From NCBI GenBank assembly GCA_029256725.1, contig JAQSXJ010000017.1, positions 55,556 through 119,555 on the forward strand: DNA of 64,000 nucleotides, written 5' to 3'. The notes under the pieces were generated by a model that ran no database searches, was not told where the DNA came from, and saw nothing but the letters and a program-made list of their open reading frames with translations. Within the stretch, counting starts at the first letter, position 1; each line of letters starts with the position of its first letter. The stretch is from Anaerocolumna sp. Its GTDB lineage: Bacteria; Bacillota; Clostridia; Lachnospirales; Lachnospiraceae. This document shows, one piece after another, positions 34,893-51,148 of this stretch. A program made the position numbers and the translations under genes.

Positions 34893-35807
34893 TCAAAAAA
34901 CTAGTTTCATACGAATATCTTGCTGATAATCTCCAAAGCCGTTTCCAAATAAGTTAACCCCGCCTACATGGACAGCATCCTCTTTAATCCCAAGTCTTAC
35001 GGATATATAAGCGTTGGCAGCCAGTTCATAAGTATCAATTGTTCTGTTATTAACCGGCATATCATCAATAAAAGTTCCCTCCTCTGATAATTTCCAGGTC
35101 TTTAAAACTCCAAACTGGGAATTTTTATCAGGCCACCAGGTAGGATTGAACTTACCTCTTCTTCCTCCAAAATCCCCCGGACAAGTCCAGGTTCCGGCTT
35201 CAATGCCGTTAATCCAAAGTGTTATATCAGAAGGATAGTTCAGGTTATACTCATGATCTTCGGAACACAGCTCCATTGATATTTCCATTCTCTTAATCTG
35301 TCTGCTGGTCAGCAGATAGTTAGGGAAACGGTATTCCACATATCCTTTACCAAACCACAAAAGTTTGGCACCGGTTCTACCTGGGTTATAGAAACATCTG
35401 GGTTCATCTTCTTCATCAATATGATTCTTCTCATTAACAATTCCGCAGGTTGGCTCCACATAATAGTCAACAAAATTGCCTATTGGCATATTTATTATTT
35501 CTGAATCCTCTTCCCTGTTCGTTTCCATGTTAAGTTCCAGTGATCTTAATTCCCTTTTGCATATTTTCATAGAACCTCTTACTGCCGGAACCAGTTCGGT
35601 TGCTATGAGCCCCGCCTCTTCTAACAGCTTAACATGAGTTGCAGCAGAAGACTGGGGGAGATTTAACTGCTCTGCGATTTCATTGATGTTATAATTACCT
35701 CTGCACAAAAGCTTTAATATTTCCAGCCTTATTTCTGCTGATAATGCCTTGGCAGTAAGTGCCATTTTCTCTGTATCATCTAAATCTAATCTGATGATTT
35801 TACTCAA
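34893..35807 (-). CDS. ArsR-type HTH regulator fused to a large beta-rich C-terminal domain
   Basis: A 304-aa protein. Residues about 10-90 form an ArsR-like winged helix (KALSAEIRLEILKLLCRGNYNINEIAEQLNLPQSSAATHVKLLEEAGLI). From about 125 to the end there is a jelly-roll-looking domain (FPNYLLTSRQIKRMEISMEL, DITLWINGIEAGTWTCPGDFGGRRG), suggesting carbohydrate binding. It lies just upstream of galK on the same strand, so it may regulate the gal genes. The start is unusual: AAGGAG is only two bases from the GTG at 35813 but eight from the TTG at 35807, which I choose. Confidence 0.82.
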   Translation of the reverse strand: MSKIIRLDLDDTEKMALTAKALSAEIRLEILKLLCRGNYNINEIAEQLNLPQSSAATHVKLLEEAGLIATELVPAVRGSMKICKRELRSLELNMETNREEDSEIINMPIGNFVDYYVEPTCGIVNEKNHIDEEDEPRCFYNPGRTGAKLLWFGKGYVEYRFPNYLLTSRQIKRMEISMELCSEDHEYNLNYPSDITLWINGIEAGTWTCPGDFGGRRGKFNPTWWPDKNSQFGVLKTWKLSEEGTFIDDMPVNNRTIDTYELAANAYISVRLGIKEDAVHVGGVNLFGNGFGDYQQDIRMKLVF

Positions 35808-35919
35808 TATCACCGCTCCTTTTATATCAGGATTTTTGATATAAACTTATTTTCTTGTTATGAATATAATATCATAATTCTATGAAAAAGAAAAGTATAT
35901 AGTAACAGTTTGCAACATT

Positions 35920-36092: not shown

Positions 36093-37754
36093 TTATTGTA
36101 TATACCCATAACCCCAATCTCTGTTTGGGTATTTCATATCCCGTCTTCTGACGCCATTGATCATTAAACTATTCTTAATGGCAGCTGTAGTCAACAATCG
36201 GCTGTCATTGTGGCTTAACCCTTCTTCCATTAGTCCTGCACAGATACCCGCAGCATAAGCAACCGCCAGACAAGTTCCAGATATAGGTACTATGGTATTA
36301 TGAATAGTTGGTGCAAGAAGATTAATGCCCGGCGCTGTAATCGTGGGTTTCGGCAAATTCATGGAAGTAAACCCTCTTCCGGTAAATGGTGCAAGAGTGA
36401 TGCTTACAGGTTCATAGGCACTAATTGTTATAGGAAAATCTGCATTCCCGGGACCAGATATCGTTGTATAAGGATCAGCATTATAGAAAAACGTTTCCTC
36501 AGAGATAAAGTTTCTTATAGGCAGCCACATATGAAATTCCGTCTCCAAATTATCCGTACCTGATACGATAAACTGCCAGACACCATCCGTTATATTTCGA
36601 AATCGAAACATTATAAGCTGCTGTTCTGAATATGCTTCACTATTATAACTGTCTATAAAAACTACCATATCATGATACATTATGCTTATATTACGTTGGG
36701 AAGCAAAATCAGACTTAAGATCATATATAATTTCACCGCCCGGTGCTATAAGTCTTACGTTTAGCAGACTGGGAAGTACTCCCCACATTTCAGCCGTGAA
36801 ATTTTTATCTTCTTTCCCAACGTTTAGATACACTGTATCAGAATTAAAAGGCGGAGTGAGCAGCCGGAAATAATGATGGCTCTGATCCCCTTCATTCCCT
36901 GAGGCCAGCAGAATGCATATGCCTGGTTTGTTGGTATTCTCATTAATATAGTTGCTTATGATATCTTCCCCTTTATGAGAACCTTGGGAAGAACTTACCC
37001 CCAAACAGATAACAACAGGTTTTTTCAGTCTTTCTGCTGCTCTTATCAGATATTCGATACCCATCATAATATCATTTTGCTGAAAACAAACCTCATCTTT
37101 TGGAATACCATAGAAATCCATAAGATAACTTTTGGCTGGTTTTAACTTCACAACAGCTAGGTTTGCTCCTGGTACTACTCCTAATACATCAATAATATCA
37201 TCTGATAATCCGGTAGCGACCCCTGCCATAGCCGTTCCTTCACCAATCAGATCAATTGACGGCACGATATCCAACGGATTATTAGAAGCTAAAGCACTGT
37301 TGATGTCTGCTGCCGAATATTCCGTGCCATAATAAAAATCTTTGGGATAATTATTACTTATAATTGTCTGATCCCATATCATTTCAATCTTCGTTGTATT
37401 ATCCTCTCTGATAAATATCCGATTCCTGTAATCAATTCCCGTATCAATAATCCCAATCACGATTCCAACACCAGAATTTTCACTGGTATTTACGCTATGT
37501 GCACTAACGCCTTCTACCCTACCCGTAAGAAAAGCAGTAAGTCCGAAACACTTTGGCAGGATATGATAACCGAATTCCTGAACTGCATTTTCATTAAAAT
37601 CTTTAACAGGTATATGCACCACCGCATACTTATCATTAATCAAATTATAAGTATAATCATGATAACGTTCAAAAAACTGCAGATTATTACTGTATTCCAC
37701 AACTAAATCAGCAAATGCCTCACTTATTATCGTATGTCTTTCCCACTCATTCAT
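36093..37754 (-). CDS. S8 (subtilisin) family pseudoprotease, Csp-like
   Basis: A 553-aa protein homologous throughout to the S8 protease at 49442. It has the Asp motif GIIDTGIDYRNR. The His motif reads LIGEGTAMAG where the sibling has ELGHGTALAG, so the catalytic His is Glu (GAA). The Ser motif reads SGTCLAVAYAAG, with Cys (TGT) for Ser. It is therefore probably not an active serine protease. There is no signal peptide, like the spore Csp proteins, where CspC is a known pseudoprotease germinant sensor. AAGGAG lies ten bases before the ATG at 37754. A SPOR amidase gene lies upstream. Confidence 0.88.
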   Translation of the reverse strand: MNEWERHTIISEAFADLVVEYSNNLQFFERYHDYTYNLINDKYAVVHIPVKDFNENAVQEFGYHILPKCFGLTAFLTGRVEGVSAHSVNTSENSGVGIVIGIIDTGIDYRNRIFIREDNTTKIEMIWDQTIISNNYPKDFYYGTEYSAADINSALASNNPLDIVPSIDLIGEGTAMAGVATGLSDDIIDVLGVVPGANLAVVKLKPAKSYLMDFYGIPKDEVCFQQNDIMMGIEYLIRAAERLKKPVVICLGVSSSQGSHKGEDIISNYINENTNKPGICILLASGNEGDQSHHYFRLLTPPFNSDTVYLNVGKEDKNFTAEMWGVLPSLLNVRLIAPGGEIIYDLKSDFASQRNISIMYHDMVVFIDSYNSEAYSEQQLIMFRFRNITDGVWQFIVSGTDNLETEFHMWLPIRNFISEETFFYNADPYTTISGPGNADFPITISAYEPVSITLAPFTGRGFTSMNLPKPTITAPGINLLAPTIHNTIVPISGTCLAVAYAAGICAGLMEEGLSHNDSRLLTTAAIKNSLMINGVRRRDMKYPNRDWGYGYIQ

Positions 37755-37955
37755 ATCATACCGGCTCCTTGGCATGGCTTAATACTTAACAGTTTAGCAT
37801 TATGCAATAATTACTAATAACTTATGATGTTTTTTTGCATATGTTTCCTTTCGTACTAAATTTCTTAAAGTAATTTGCCGGTTTGTAAAACCTTTCGCTA
37901 TCAGAGAATTTCAGGAATTATGCAGGCAGAACCGGCAAAGCTTTTAAGGCGATTA

Positions 37956-39014
37956 TTAACGCCTGCCATCTCTAACTATTAAAGTGCTATACCCCATCTG
38001 TCTTAAGGCATCCTCTTCTTTGGCCGCTTCATCAAGATTGCTAAAACTACCCGTAGTTACAGCGTAAACCTCACCCTGTCTTATGATATCTGCCGGTATA
38101 CCGTTCTCCATCAAATTCCTGATCAAGTTGTTGGCATTATTAATATCATTGAACAAACCAAGCTGAATGTGATAAACCGGCTGTTCACCATTCTCACCAT
38201 CCCTAAAATCCGTATCCGTTTCAGATTCTTCGCTCATACCATTATTCTCTTGATTGCTTCGATTTTGGCTACTTCCATTCTGCCTTTCTCCATTTTGATT
38301 ATCATTCTGTGATCTGTCATTCCTCATATCCTCATTCTGATAATCTCCGTTGCGAGGTCTGCCATTCCGAGAATTTTCATTTTGATATCCATTGGGAGAA
38401 CTGCCATTTTGAGCATTCTCATTATACATATCCTCTTCATTGTAATACTCATCCTCAGAATATTCCTCACCACTGTCTGCATTCTCACCAAGAGTATCCA
38501 GTATAGCTGCTGCTATTGCATAAGCGATTTCATCAAATCTTTCATCGAATAAAGTATTATCTGAGTCTGTGTTAATAAATCCCACTTCAACTAATACTGC
38601 CGGCATATTTGTTCTTCGCAGAACAGCCAGATCTGTCCTCACGGTTATACCAAGATCAGAAAACCCCACTTCTTCAAGCTCTTGATTAATATTTGCCGCA
38701 AGCACTGCCGAAGGATCATCCATATCATATACAAGTGATTGAACACCGCTGTAGGTATTCGGTGTAGGACTTGAATTTCTATGAATAGAAACGAAATAAT
38801 CTGCGCCTTCCAGATTAGCCATATATGCTCTTTCTAAGGGCGATACATAGATATCATCTACTCTGGTATACAGTACGTCCACTCCGTTGTTATTAAGTAT
38901 TTCACCTATTTCCAGTGTCAGGTCAAGGTTATCGTATTTTTCCATTCGTCCAAAATACACTGCACCGTTGTCATAACCGCCATGTCCGGCATCTAGAATT
39001 ATTCGATTAGCCAT
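37956..39014 (-). CDS. N-acetylmuramoyl-L-alanine amidase (Amidase_3) with C-terminal SPOR domain
   Basis: Zinc amidase of 352 aa that cleaves peptidoglycan stem peptides. The catalytic domain (1-165) has ILDAGHGGYDNGAVY, a His in FVSIHRNSSP and a Glu in AVLVEVGFINT. An Asn-rich linker of about 60 residues is built from 5-residue units of the type N-G-x-x-Q/R. A SPOR domain (about 275-350) follows and binds glycan strands. No signal peptide is seen, as in sporulation amidases of the CwlC type. TGAGG is spaced for the ATG at 39014, not the TTG at 39026. Confidence 0.9.
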   Translation of the reverse strand: MANRIILDAGHGGYDNGAVYFGRMEKYDNLDLTLEIGEILNNNGVDVLYTRVDDIYVSPLERAYMANLEGADYFVSIHRNSSPTPNTYSGVQSLVYDMDDPSAVLAANINQELEEVGFSDLGITVRTDLAVLRRTNMPAVLVEVGFINTDSDNTLFDERFDEIAYAIAAAILDTLGENADSGEEYSEDEYYNEEDMYNENAQNGSSPNGYQNENSRNGRPRNGDYQNEDMRNDRSQNDNQNGERQNGSSQNRSNQENNGMSEESETDTDFRDGENGEQPVYHIQLGLFNDINNANNLIRNLMENGIPADIIRQGEVYAVTTGSFSNLDEAAKEEDALRQMGYSTLIVRDGRR

Positions 39015-39173
39015 AGATAGCCTCAAAGTAATCTTTTAGCCTATCATATGCCACAGCCAAGTCCCTTGTTACTCTTACAAATGTACATATATTCTGACTC
39101 CATTGATAGCAATATTAACTTTCTGTATATTTACGTAATCAACAGAGTTTAAGCCAATTCATGATTTTCTCTA

Positions 39174-49441: not shown

Positions 49442-51148
49442 TTATAATGTAGACTCTCCTCTTAAACTGTCAAAAGTCCTGAAAATATCTATCATGCCGA
49501 ATCCCCATACTTTATTGGGATAGGTTTCATTCGTACTTCTTTTTACGCCGCGAATAAGAAATTGCTTTACAGCTGTTGAATCCATATAGATTAATTTACC
49601 GCGCACGAGCCCCCATTCTAAAAGCAGAGCACAAATCCCCGCTGTTACAGCTGCAGACAGACTGGTACCTGTTTTTGATACAAATCCCTCTGAGCTTGGA
49701 CATAGTAGTTCTACCCCAGGTGCCGCTAATTCAGGCTTTATATTATTTAATCGTGTAAATCCTCTCCCTGCATTTAAATAAATGCTCTGATTTCTGTAAT
49801 CATAAGCAGTTACGGTTATTGGAATACCTGCATTTCCTGGTGTTGTTATCGTAGTTTCCGGATTAGGTTTTACAAATCTGGTTGCTTCTCTTACAAAGCC
49901 AGTCATAGGGAGCCAGATATGAAAACCAGTGGTGATATCCTTGATTCCATATACCCTAAAGCGCCATATTCCCGGTGCAGGCTTAACAAACCGCAGAAAT
50001 ATGAGTTGATCTCCGGTTTGAGCTTCTGCTATCAGATAACTTATATATAAGATGGTACTTTCAAACAAAAAACGAATGGTTCTGCTTTCCCCTAGTCTGG
50101 CCGGTATTCTGGGTATGTATTCCCCCGAAGGCGAAGTGATATCAATGGAATATACTCCCGGAGCCTGCCCCCATAATTCCATGGTAAAACCACTCTCCTG
50201 TTCGGCAACATTAACCTCTACTAAATTACTATTGACTGTATCTTCAACGGTACCAAAATAATGATGTCCGGCAGCGCCTTCATTACCCGCTGGTATAACG
50301 ATAACTACTCCATTTCTTTCACCCAGCCTCGAAAGCATGAGACTTATCGGTTCTCTCCCATCATGCCCTCCCATATTCGATCCCAGACCTATACAGATAA
50401 CAATTGGTTTATTCCTTTGTTTTGCTAGATTAACAAGATACAATACACCTGCCATAATATCATTTTCCTGATATGCAACGGTTTCTTTGGGTATAAACAG
50501 ATAATCCCTGATATTATCTTTTGCCCGTTTTAATTTAACTACTGCAATCTCTGATAAGGTTGCAATTCCTGTAAAGTTTTCTACCTGCACTTCACCTCCG
50601 CCCGCCAAACCTGCCAAAGCTGTTCCATGTCCCAGTTCGTCCACACTAGGTACAACCGATAAAGGTGATTCACTTCTTAGCGCCTCATTAATATTATCTT
50701 CTGTGTATACTTTGCCATAGTTGTAAGTCTCAGGTGTTGCTTCCGGATTAACTATGGTCTGATCCCAGATAGATATAATTCTGGTTGTATTGTCACTTTT
50801 TCTGAATACTGAATGGGTATAATCTATTCCCGTATCAACAAACCCAAGAATAACTCCTTCTCCTTGCAGATTAAGTCCGGGTAGTCTGGATAATCTGTTA
50901 AGTCCAACAGCTTCAAGAGTTGGTGATTCCACCAGTCCAAATAATTTAGGTATGGCGGTATAGCCTATATCACCTACTAACCTTTCCTGGACTTTACTGG
51001 CAGGTATATATGCTACTGCATAGGTTTCATCTAATATCTGTATGGTTTCACCATAAACATCTTTTATACGCGAGAGATCTACATCATACTCGATCAATAT
51101 ATCTATATAGTCATTACTGATTATTTTATTCTGCTCTTCCTGCGTCAT
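49442..51148 (-). CDS. S8 (subtilisin) family serine protease, Csp-like, active-site intact
   Basis: A 568-aa protease. Asp in ILGFVDTGIDYTHSVF, His in DELGHGTALAGLAGG and Ser in KTGTSLSAAVTAGICALL complete the triad. An N-terminal prodomain-like region (about 1-95) and a roughly 150-residue jelly-roll insertion between His and Ser are as in clostridial Csp proteases. No signal peptide. In spore formers Csp proteases activate the cortex hydrolase SleC. It is a paralogue of the pseudoprotease at 36093 but lies 12 kb away. Confidence 0.9.
   Translation of the reverse strand: MTQEEQNKIISNDYIDILIEYDVDLSRIKDVYGETIQILDETYAVAYIPASKVQERLVGDIGYTAIPKLFGLVESPTLEAVGLNRLSRLPGLNLQGEGVILGFVDTGIDYTHSVFRKSDNTTRIISIWDQTIVNPEATPETYNYGKVYTEDNINEALRSESPLSVVPSVDELGHGTALAGLAGGGEVQVENFTGIATLSEIAVVKLKRAKDNIRDYLFIPKETVAYQENDIMAGVLYLVNLAKQRNKPIVICIGLGSNMGGHDGREPISLMLSRLGERNGVVIVIPAGNEGAAGHHYFGTVEDTVNSNLVEVNVAEQESGFTMELWGQAPGVYSIDITSPSGEYIPRIPARLGESRTIRFLFESTILYISYLIAEAQTGDQLIFLRFVKPAPGIWRFRVYGIKDITTGFHIWLPMTGFVREATRFVKPNPETTITTPGNAGIPITVTAYDYRNQSIYLNAGRGFTRLNNIKPELAAPGVELLCPSSEGFVSKTGTSLSAAVTAGICALLLEWGLVRGKLIYMDSTAVKQFLIRGVKRSTNETYPNKVWGFGMIDIFRTFDSLRGESTL

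Follow-up and report, generated by a model that had tools for sequence, protein, structure and literature searches.

The gene studied here lies on the minus strand of the window (the whole stretch of 64,000 nucleotides of Anaerocolumna sp. DNA that was analysed) and, as the initial annotation had proposed, it encodes an S8 pseudoprotease that adjoins a cell-wall amidase (Table 1). Read from its first ATG, the open reading frame runs from 36093 to 37775 and encodes 560 aa. The second ATG (Met8) aligns with the starts of the paralogues and is preceded, ten bases upstream, by AAGGAG; the gene is therefore more likely to begin there. It is a stand-alone gene, with no cspBA-cspC operon or fusion, placed between the amidase, which begins right at its catalytic domain, and an ArsR-like regulator. 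The latter, an ArsR-type HTH protein (34893-35813), carries a long C-terminal extension without Pfam match and is 96-99% conserved in two relatives.

Table 1. Features of the pseudoprotease locus and of the linked paralogue, in window coordinates.
Feature	Position	Strand	Basis
Csp-family S8 pseudoprotease (alternative upstream ATG at 37775)	36093..37754	-	Pfam, NCBIfam and PDB matches, alignment
N-terminal region, putative divergent and shortened CspB-type prodomain	37476..37754	-	sub-threshold Pfam match, 17.9 bits
Triad Asp codon (D111, DTGIDY), kept	37443..37445	-	alignment
Catalytic His position, Glu (E179, GEGT)	37239..37241	-	alignment
Oxyanion-hole Asn (N294, SGNEG), kept	36894..36896	-	alignment
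Nucleophile position, Cys (C502, SGTC)	36270..36272	-	alignment
Sigma-K-type promoter AC-N16-CATAAGTTA, conserved in orthologues	37818..37844	-	motif search
Amidase_3 + SPOR cell-wall amidase, CwlC-like layout, syntenic neighbour	37956..39026	-	Pfam, synteny
Sigma-K-type promoter-like site AC-N17-CATATGATA upstream of amidase, conserved in KNHs205	39042..39069	-	motif search
Paralogue with intact Asp/His/Ser, linked in some species only	49442..51148	-	alignment, synteny

Csp family membership and active-site residues

Pfam assigned the protein to Peptidase_S8, and all eight PDB matches at E 1e-35 or better were Csp chains, with C. perfringens CspB first (179 bits, 9e-52), followed by C. difficile CspA and CspC. 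The best NCBIfam models were CspBA and CspC, both below cut-off. The protein is thus a Csp relative, as had been supposed, whose nearest solved structures are those of CspB, CspA and CspC. At the N-terminus the best match, below cut-off, was the CspB prodomain PF18425 (17.9 of 25 bits); the canonical CspB of the same genome scored 105 bits with this model. An AlphaFold model made with three sequences was too poor for use (pLDDT 38).

When aligned with the sibling at 49442, the protein has GEGT for GHGT and GTC for GTS (E179 and C502) and keeps the Asp motif (D111), all three as first described; the oxyanion-hole Asn, which that description did not include, is also retained. The four catalytic positions read D, E, N and C identically in three species. 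Because the E179 and C502 substitutions recur at 93-94% identity in two other species, including the isolate Clostridium sp. KNHs205, sequencing errors were rejected as their cause. KNHs205 is filed under Clostridium by NCBI, and it probably belongs to a lachnospiral lineage; the genus studied here lies in a large GTDB family. The protein lacks the catalytically competent His and Ser of the active Csp members, and it has the pattern of the CspA and CspC pseudoproteases, in which two of the three triad residues are replaced and the Asp is kept. By residue content, these data show an active site that is dead, both the catalytic His and the Ser being lost.

Nine Csp-like paralogues, each about 530-576 aa long, are encoded in the genome. 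Asp, His and Ser are intact in seven of them and the other two are pseudoproteases; a canonical CspB with a PF18425 prodomain is present besides, as a separate gene on contig C114 (350 bits). There are thus, in addition to the sibling at 49442, six more His/Ser-intact expanded paralogues and the canonical CspB. The second pseudoprotease (contig C148, L015:5061-6653) also carries GEGT; relative to G005 and G013, about 78 bases are deleted in frame across its Ser region, and in its orthologues the Ser is changed to Gly. Also present are sigK (score above the curated cut-off), SleC (matching the solved pre-pro-form at E 9e-123), another SleC-like gene, and a gerA operon encoding a Ger receptor. 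YabG was sought in the genome and not detected.

Age of the His loss and selection on the gene

We looked for orthologues in 15 genomes of the genus. Ten carry the pseudoprotease, with the frame intact in all ten, and no orthologue was found in the other five, one of which is 99% complete, so the protein is not essential for germination in the genus. Trees were computed from 112 homologues and, more carefully, from 59 homologues after removal of the catalytic columns; the latter tree included CspA. All 19 His-less homologues of the genus formed one clade, with a support of 100 in the larger tree and 100/100 in the smaller. This clade is surrounded by His-bearing paralogues, and its nearest relatives are proteins with an intact triad. 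The trees show that, within the genus, the His was lost once and anciently. When about 400 genomes of the GTDB family were sampled, the nearest homologues outside the genus all kept the His, and in this sample the loss appears in this genus only. Glu occupies the His position in 13 of the 19 His-less proteins. The orthologues of the pseudoprotease have Glu or Gln there and mostly keep the Ser, the change to Cys being confined to the branch leading to three close species and later than the His loss. In the sister clade II, the nucleophile position holds Gly or nothing.

In the tree of 59, which lacked CspC, C. difficile CspA fell outside the expanded family (100/100). Judged from this position, the pseudoprotease is not a CspA orthologue and its loss of activity is independent of that of CspA. 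Thus, of the kinship with CspA, CspB and CspC that was to be checked in a tree, the membership among Csp relatives stands and a shared origin with CspA does not.

Between species, dN/dS was 0.024-0.038 for the pseudoprotease as compared with 0.025-0.11 for the intact-triad paralogues, which shows a strong purifying selection as strict as that on the active paralogues. Among the species with the conserved Cys, dS was about 0.5-1.1. At least eight genomes share the order pyk, GNAT, amidase, pseudoprotease, some of them with other genes inserted. Recent damage, which the initial annotation had named as a finding that would overturn its reading, was rejected on the single supported clade, the low dN/dS and the shared synteny; the substitutions are ancient and maintained by selection. 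At 24 positions the ten orthologues have an invariant or almost invariant residue that seldom occurs among 81 intact-triad paralogues. As 21 of these 24 lie outside the His segment (e.g. K268, E270, D271, N275, E279, Y382 and E384), constraint has shifted elsewhere in the protein. Past the GYG motif the His-to-Glu proteins all have three more residues (five in one), whereas the intact-triad paralogues extend for another 12-30; this tail is lost in all the His-to-Glu proteins.

Catalytic residues are also replaced in other branches. In one Csp-like branch (L032, L034, L035, L036, L049) the His is changed to Gln and the oxyanion Asn to Asp or Glu, with the Ser kept, which is an unusual composition for such a site. 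Conversely, the Ser is replaced by Gly (GTG) and the His kept in the Csp-like paralogues L042, L043, L044, L047, L050, L061, L064, L066 and L090, as well as in L135, L144 and L148 of other genera. Among the His-bearing paralogues, the Ser-to-Gly replacement represents at least about four separate changes.

Sporulation promoters and split germination genes

The motif AC-N16-CATAnnnTA, of which the pseudoprotease gene has a perfect copy, was present upstream of eight of the ten orthologues (all three close ones and five of the seven others), of 2 of 93 His-bearing paralogues and of none of 83 control upstream regions, with about 0 in shuffles; since it was found and judged on the same relatives, these counts are of related sequences and not of independent events. 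A looser spacing and a longer window gave two strict matches among the controls, both at the neighbouring amidase, and the tighter pattern gave none. AC-N16-CATAnnnTA is the sigma-K form; this consensus and the ATA/CATA one are those of sporulation promoters in B. subtilis and C. difficile. The sporulation-sigma promoter that had been suggested as a check is therefore present, in a sigma-K-type version. Among the His-bearing paralogues, 61 of 93 have a CATATA mother-cell-type −10 sequence (3 of 83 controls), preceded in 30 of 93 by an ATA at sigma-E spacing (0 of 83 controls). The frequency of the CATATA −10 sequence makes the entire Csp-like family look like a sporulation regulon. For the pseudoprotease itself, the promoter motif supports expression in the mother cell. 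In C. difficile, the csp operon is sigma-E-dependent and sleC is sigma-K-dependent (PMC3789822).

In related genomes, cspB and sleC are themselves interrupted. In at least six relatives cspB is split at the GHGTHV catalytic His motif (L166 in G013, L167 in G002, L168 in G014, L169 in G012; also G005, G011 and G009) by elements of 4.8-27 kb, which encode a large serine recombinase in those examined in detail and end in direct repeats of 11 and 14 bases in G013 and G002. Joining the flanks in G013 restored a CspB of 583 aa, 97.6% identical to the intact gene. In six relatives, elements of 2.6-43 kb interrupt sleC near codon 300, at GW/MTQ (L170 in G004, L171 in G011, L172 in G012, L173 in G009; also G001 and G003), and it is intact in G000. 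The four sleC elements examined carry a serine recombinase different from that of the cspB elements, and three of them have the repeat GGATGACC at both ends; the joined flanks gave open frames in three genomes. Most cspB and sleC elements examined in detail end in short direct repeats (8-14 bp). The cspB-splitting element looks like a skin-type sporulation excision element, comparable to that splitting sigK. In the literature searched, the targets named for such excision elements are sigK, spsM, spoVFB, gerE, spoVR and yabG; neither cspB nor sleC is among them. Since a Csp-like paralogue (569 aa; L173:1976-3685, G009) sits inside a sleC-splitting element, mobile elements may help to spread the family.

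Possible function and comparison with known systems

The pseudoprotease is very probably under selection and expressed in sporulation. The explanation we favour, with moderate confidence, is that it is a dead Csp-family member made by the mother cell as a spore pseudoprotease that regulates the active Csp proteases and hence SleC. It would be produced late in sporulation, be packed near the spore cortex and bind an active Csp protease and/or pro-SleC; this binding would set when Csp proteolysis of pro-SleC begins, in the manner of CspA and CspC in C. difficile but alongside a Ger-type receptor. The Csp pseudoproteases of C. difficile regulate germination (PMC6636752, PMC6464247, PMC12880746); because the present protein is not orthologous to CspA, such a function is attributed to it by analogy. 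Against a regulator role, the canonical CspB/SleC pair could work alone. As a tentative extension, Csp pseudoprotease germination sensors might have evolved here a second time, independently, each paralogue sensing or gating a different cue. If so, dead and live Csps would form a combinatorial germination switch in a genus with a Ger receptor and many intact-triad Csp paralogues.

A structural or chaperone-like protein of the spore coat or envelope, in which the dead Csp fold serves as a scaffold or in the maturation of spore proteins without germination signalling, is unlikely but deserves consideration. The sigma-K-type promoter is typical of coat genes (in C. difficile, e.g. cotA and cotE; PMC3789822), the CwlC-like amidase next door has a promoter-like site too, which points to late functions of the mother cell, and the pseudoprotease is not universal in the genus. 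However, the germination pathway is the better fit for a relative of CspA, CspB and CspC in a genome that also encodes CspB and SleC.

The initial annotation had instead paired the protein, as a sensor or decoy, with the protease 12 kb away, and an action specific to this sibling seems improbable. The two genes share the same locus block, with pyk, hydrogenase and suf genes between them, in G000, G003, G005, G013 and G002, that is five of the ten genomes; however, conservation extends over the entire block, which makes the linkage unspecific, and in three single-contig genomes with a pseudoprotease gene (G004, G011 and G012) no full-length member of the sibling's clade was found. The exclusive form of the pairing is thus unsupported, and the sibling is one candidate partner whose linkage is not general.

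We consider very improbable an enzyme of altered chemistry, in which Glu replaces His as the general base and, in three species, Cys is the nucleophile. The frequency of Glu in the His-less proteins, the Ser retained in many orthologues, the conserved Asp and oxyanion Asn, and a Cys maintained over the synonymous divergence given above would all fit. S53 sedolisins, whose fold is related to that of subtilisin, carry a Ser-Glu-Asp triad in which Glu takes the place of the subtilisin His. However, all orthologues have Met where sedolisins have Asp at Glu+4 (GEGTAM or GEGTSM), the oxyanion residue is Asn and not Asp, the nucleophile here is Cys, in some members of the clade the His is replaced by Gln, and in clade II the nucleophile is Gly or missing altogether. 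We know of no precedent for a Glu-Cys pair on this fold. Since Ser is retained in the majority of orthologues and a His general base is absent from all of them, the different Cys chemistry that had been raised at first is unlikely to be the purpose of the clade. Finally, a decaying, functionless paralogue, although compatible with a large family that has some truncated copies and with the deletion in the C148 pseudoprotease, is hardly credible given the dN/dS of 0.02-0.04, the intact frame in ten genomes and the conserved promoter and synteny, and it is refuted by the purifying selection unless this signal is an artefact.

The regulatory pseudoprotease that we favour resembles C. difficile CspA, the pseudoprotease domain of CspBA, in its Csp family, in keeping Asp and Asn while His and Ser are replaced, and in being a putative sporulation gene in a genome with same-family proteases and SleC. 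It differs from CspA in having Glu and Cys rather than Gln and Ala (PDB 9pr9), in not being fused to CspB, in belonging to a separate expanded family with an independent loss, in the lack of a detected YabG and in a sigma-K-type rather than sigma-E promoter. CspBA itself was not found in a class-wide genome sample, a result that does not show its absence. C. perfringens CspB (PDB 4i0w), the best single structure match, has the same order of prodomain, which is putative in the present protein, S8 and inserted domain; its His and Ser are active, and its counterpart here is the C114 gene.

Csp pseudoproteases have been described as restricted to the Peptostreptococcaceae, the Csps of Clostridiaceae and Lachnospiraceae being all active (PMC6636752, PMC12880746). 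At the level of sequence, and whether or not KNHs205 is lachnospiral, this restriction is contradicted by the present protein, an old, independent and selected loss of activity outside the Peptostreptococcaceae, accompanied by recurrent Ser-to-Gly losses in other paralogues. One can now test whether evolution has arrived more than once at the control of germination by pseudoproteases. C. difficile CspC (PDB 6mw4) resembles the present protein in length and in being an unfused Csp pseudoprotease (127 bits by sequence), but C. difficile is without Ger receptors whereas this genome has one, so that the comparison also makes it possible to ask whether pseudoprotease control needs the absence of Ger receptors.
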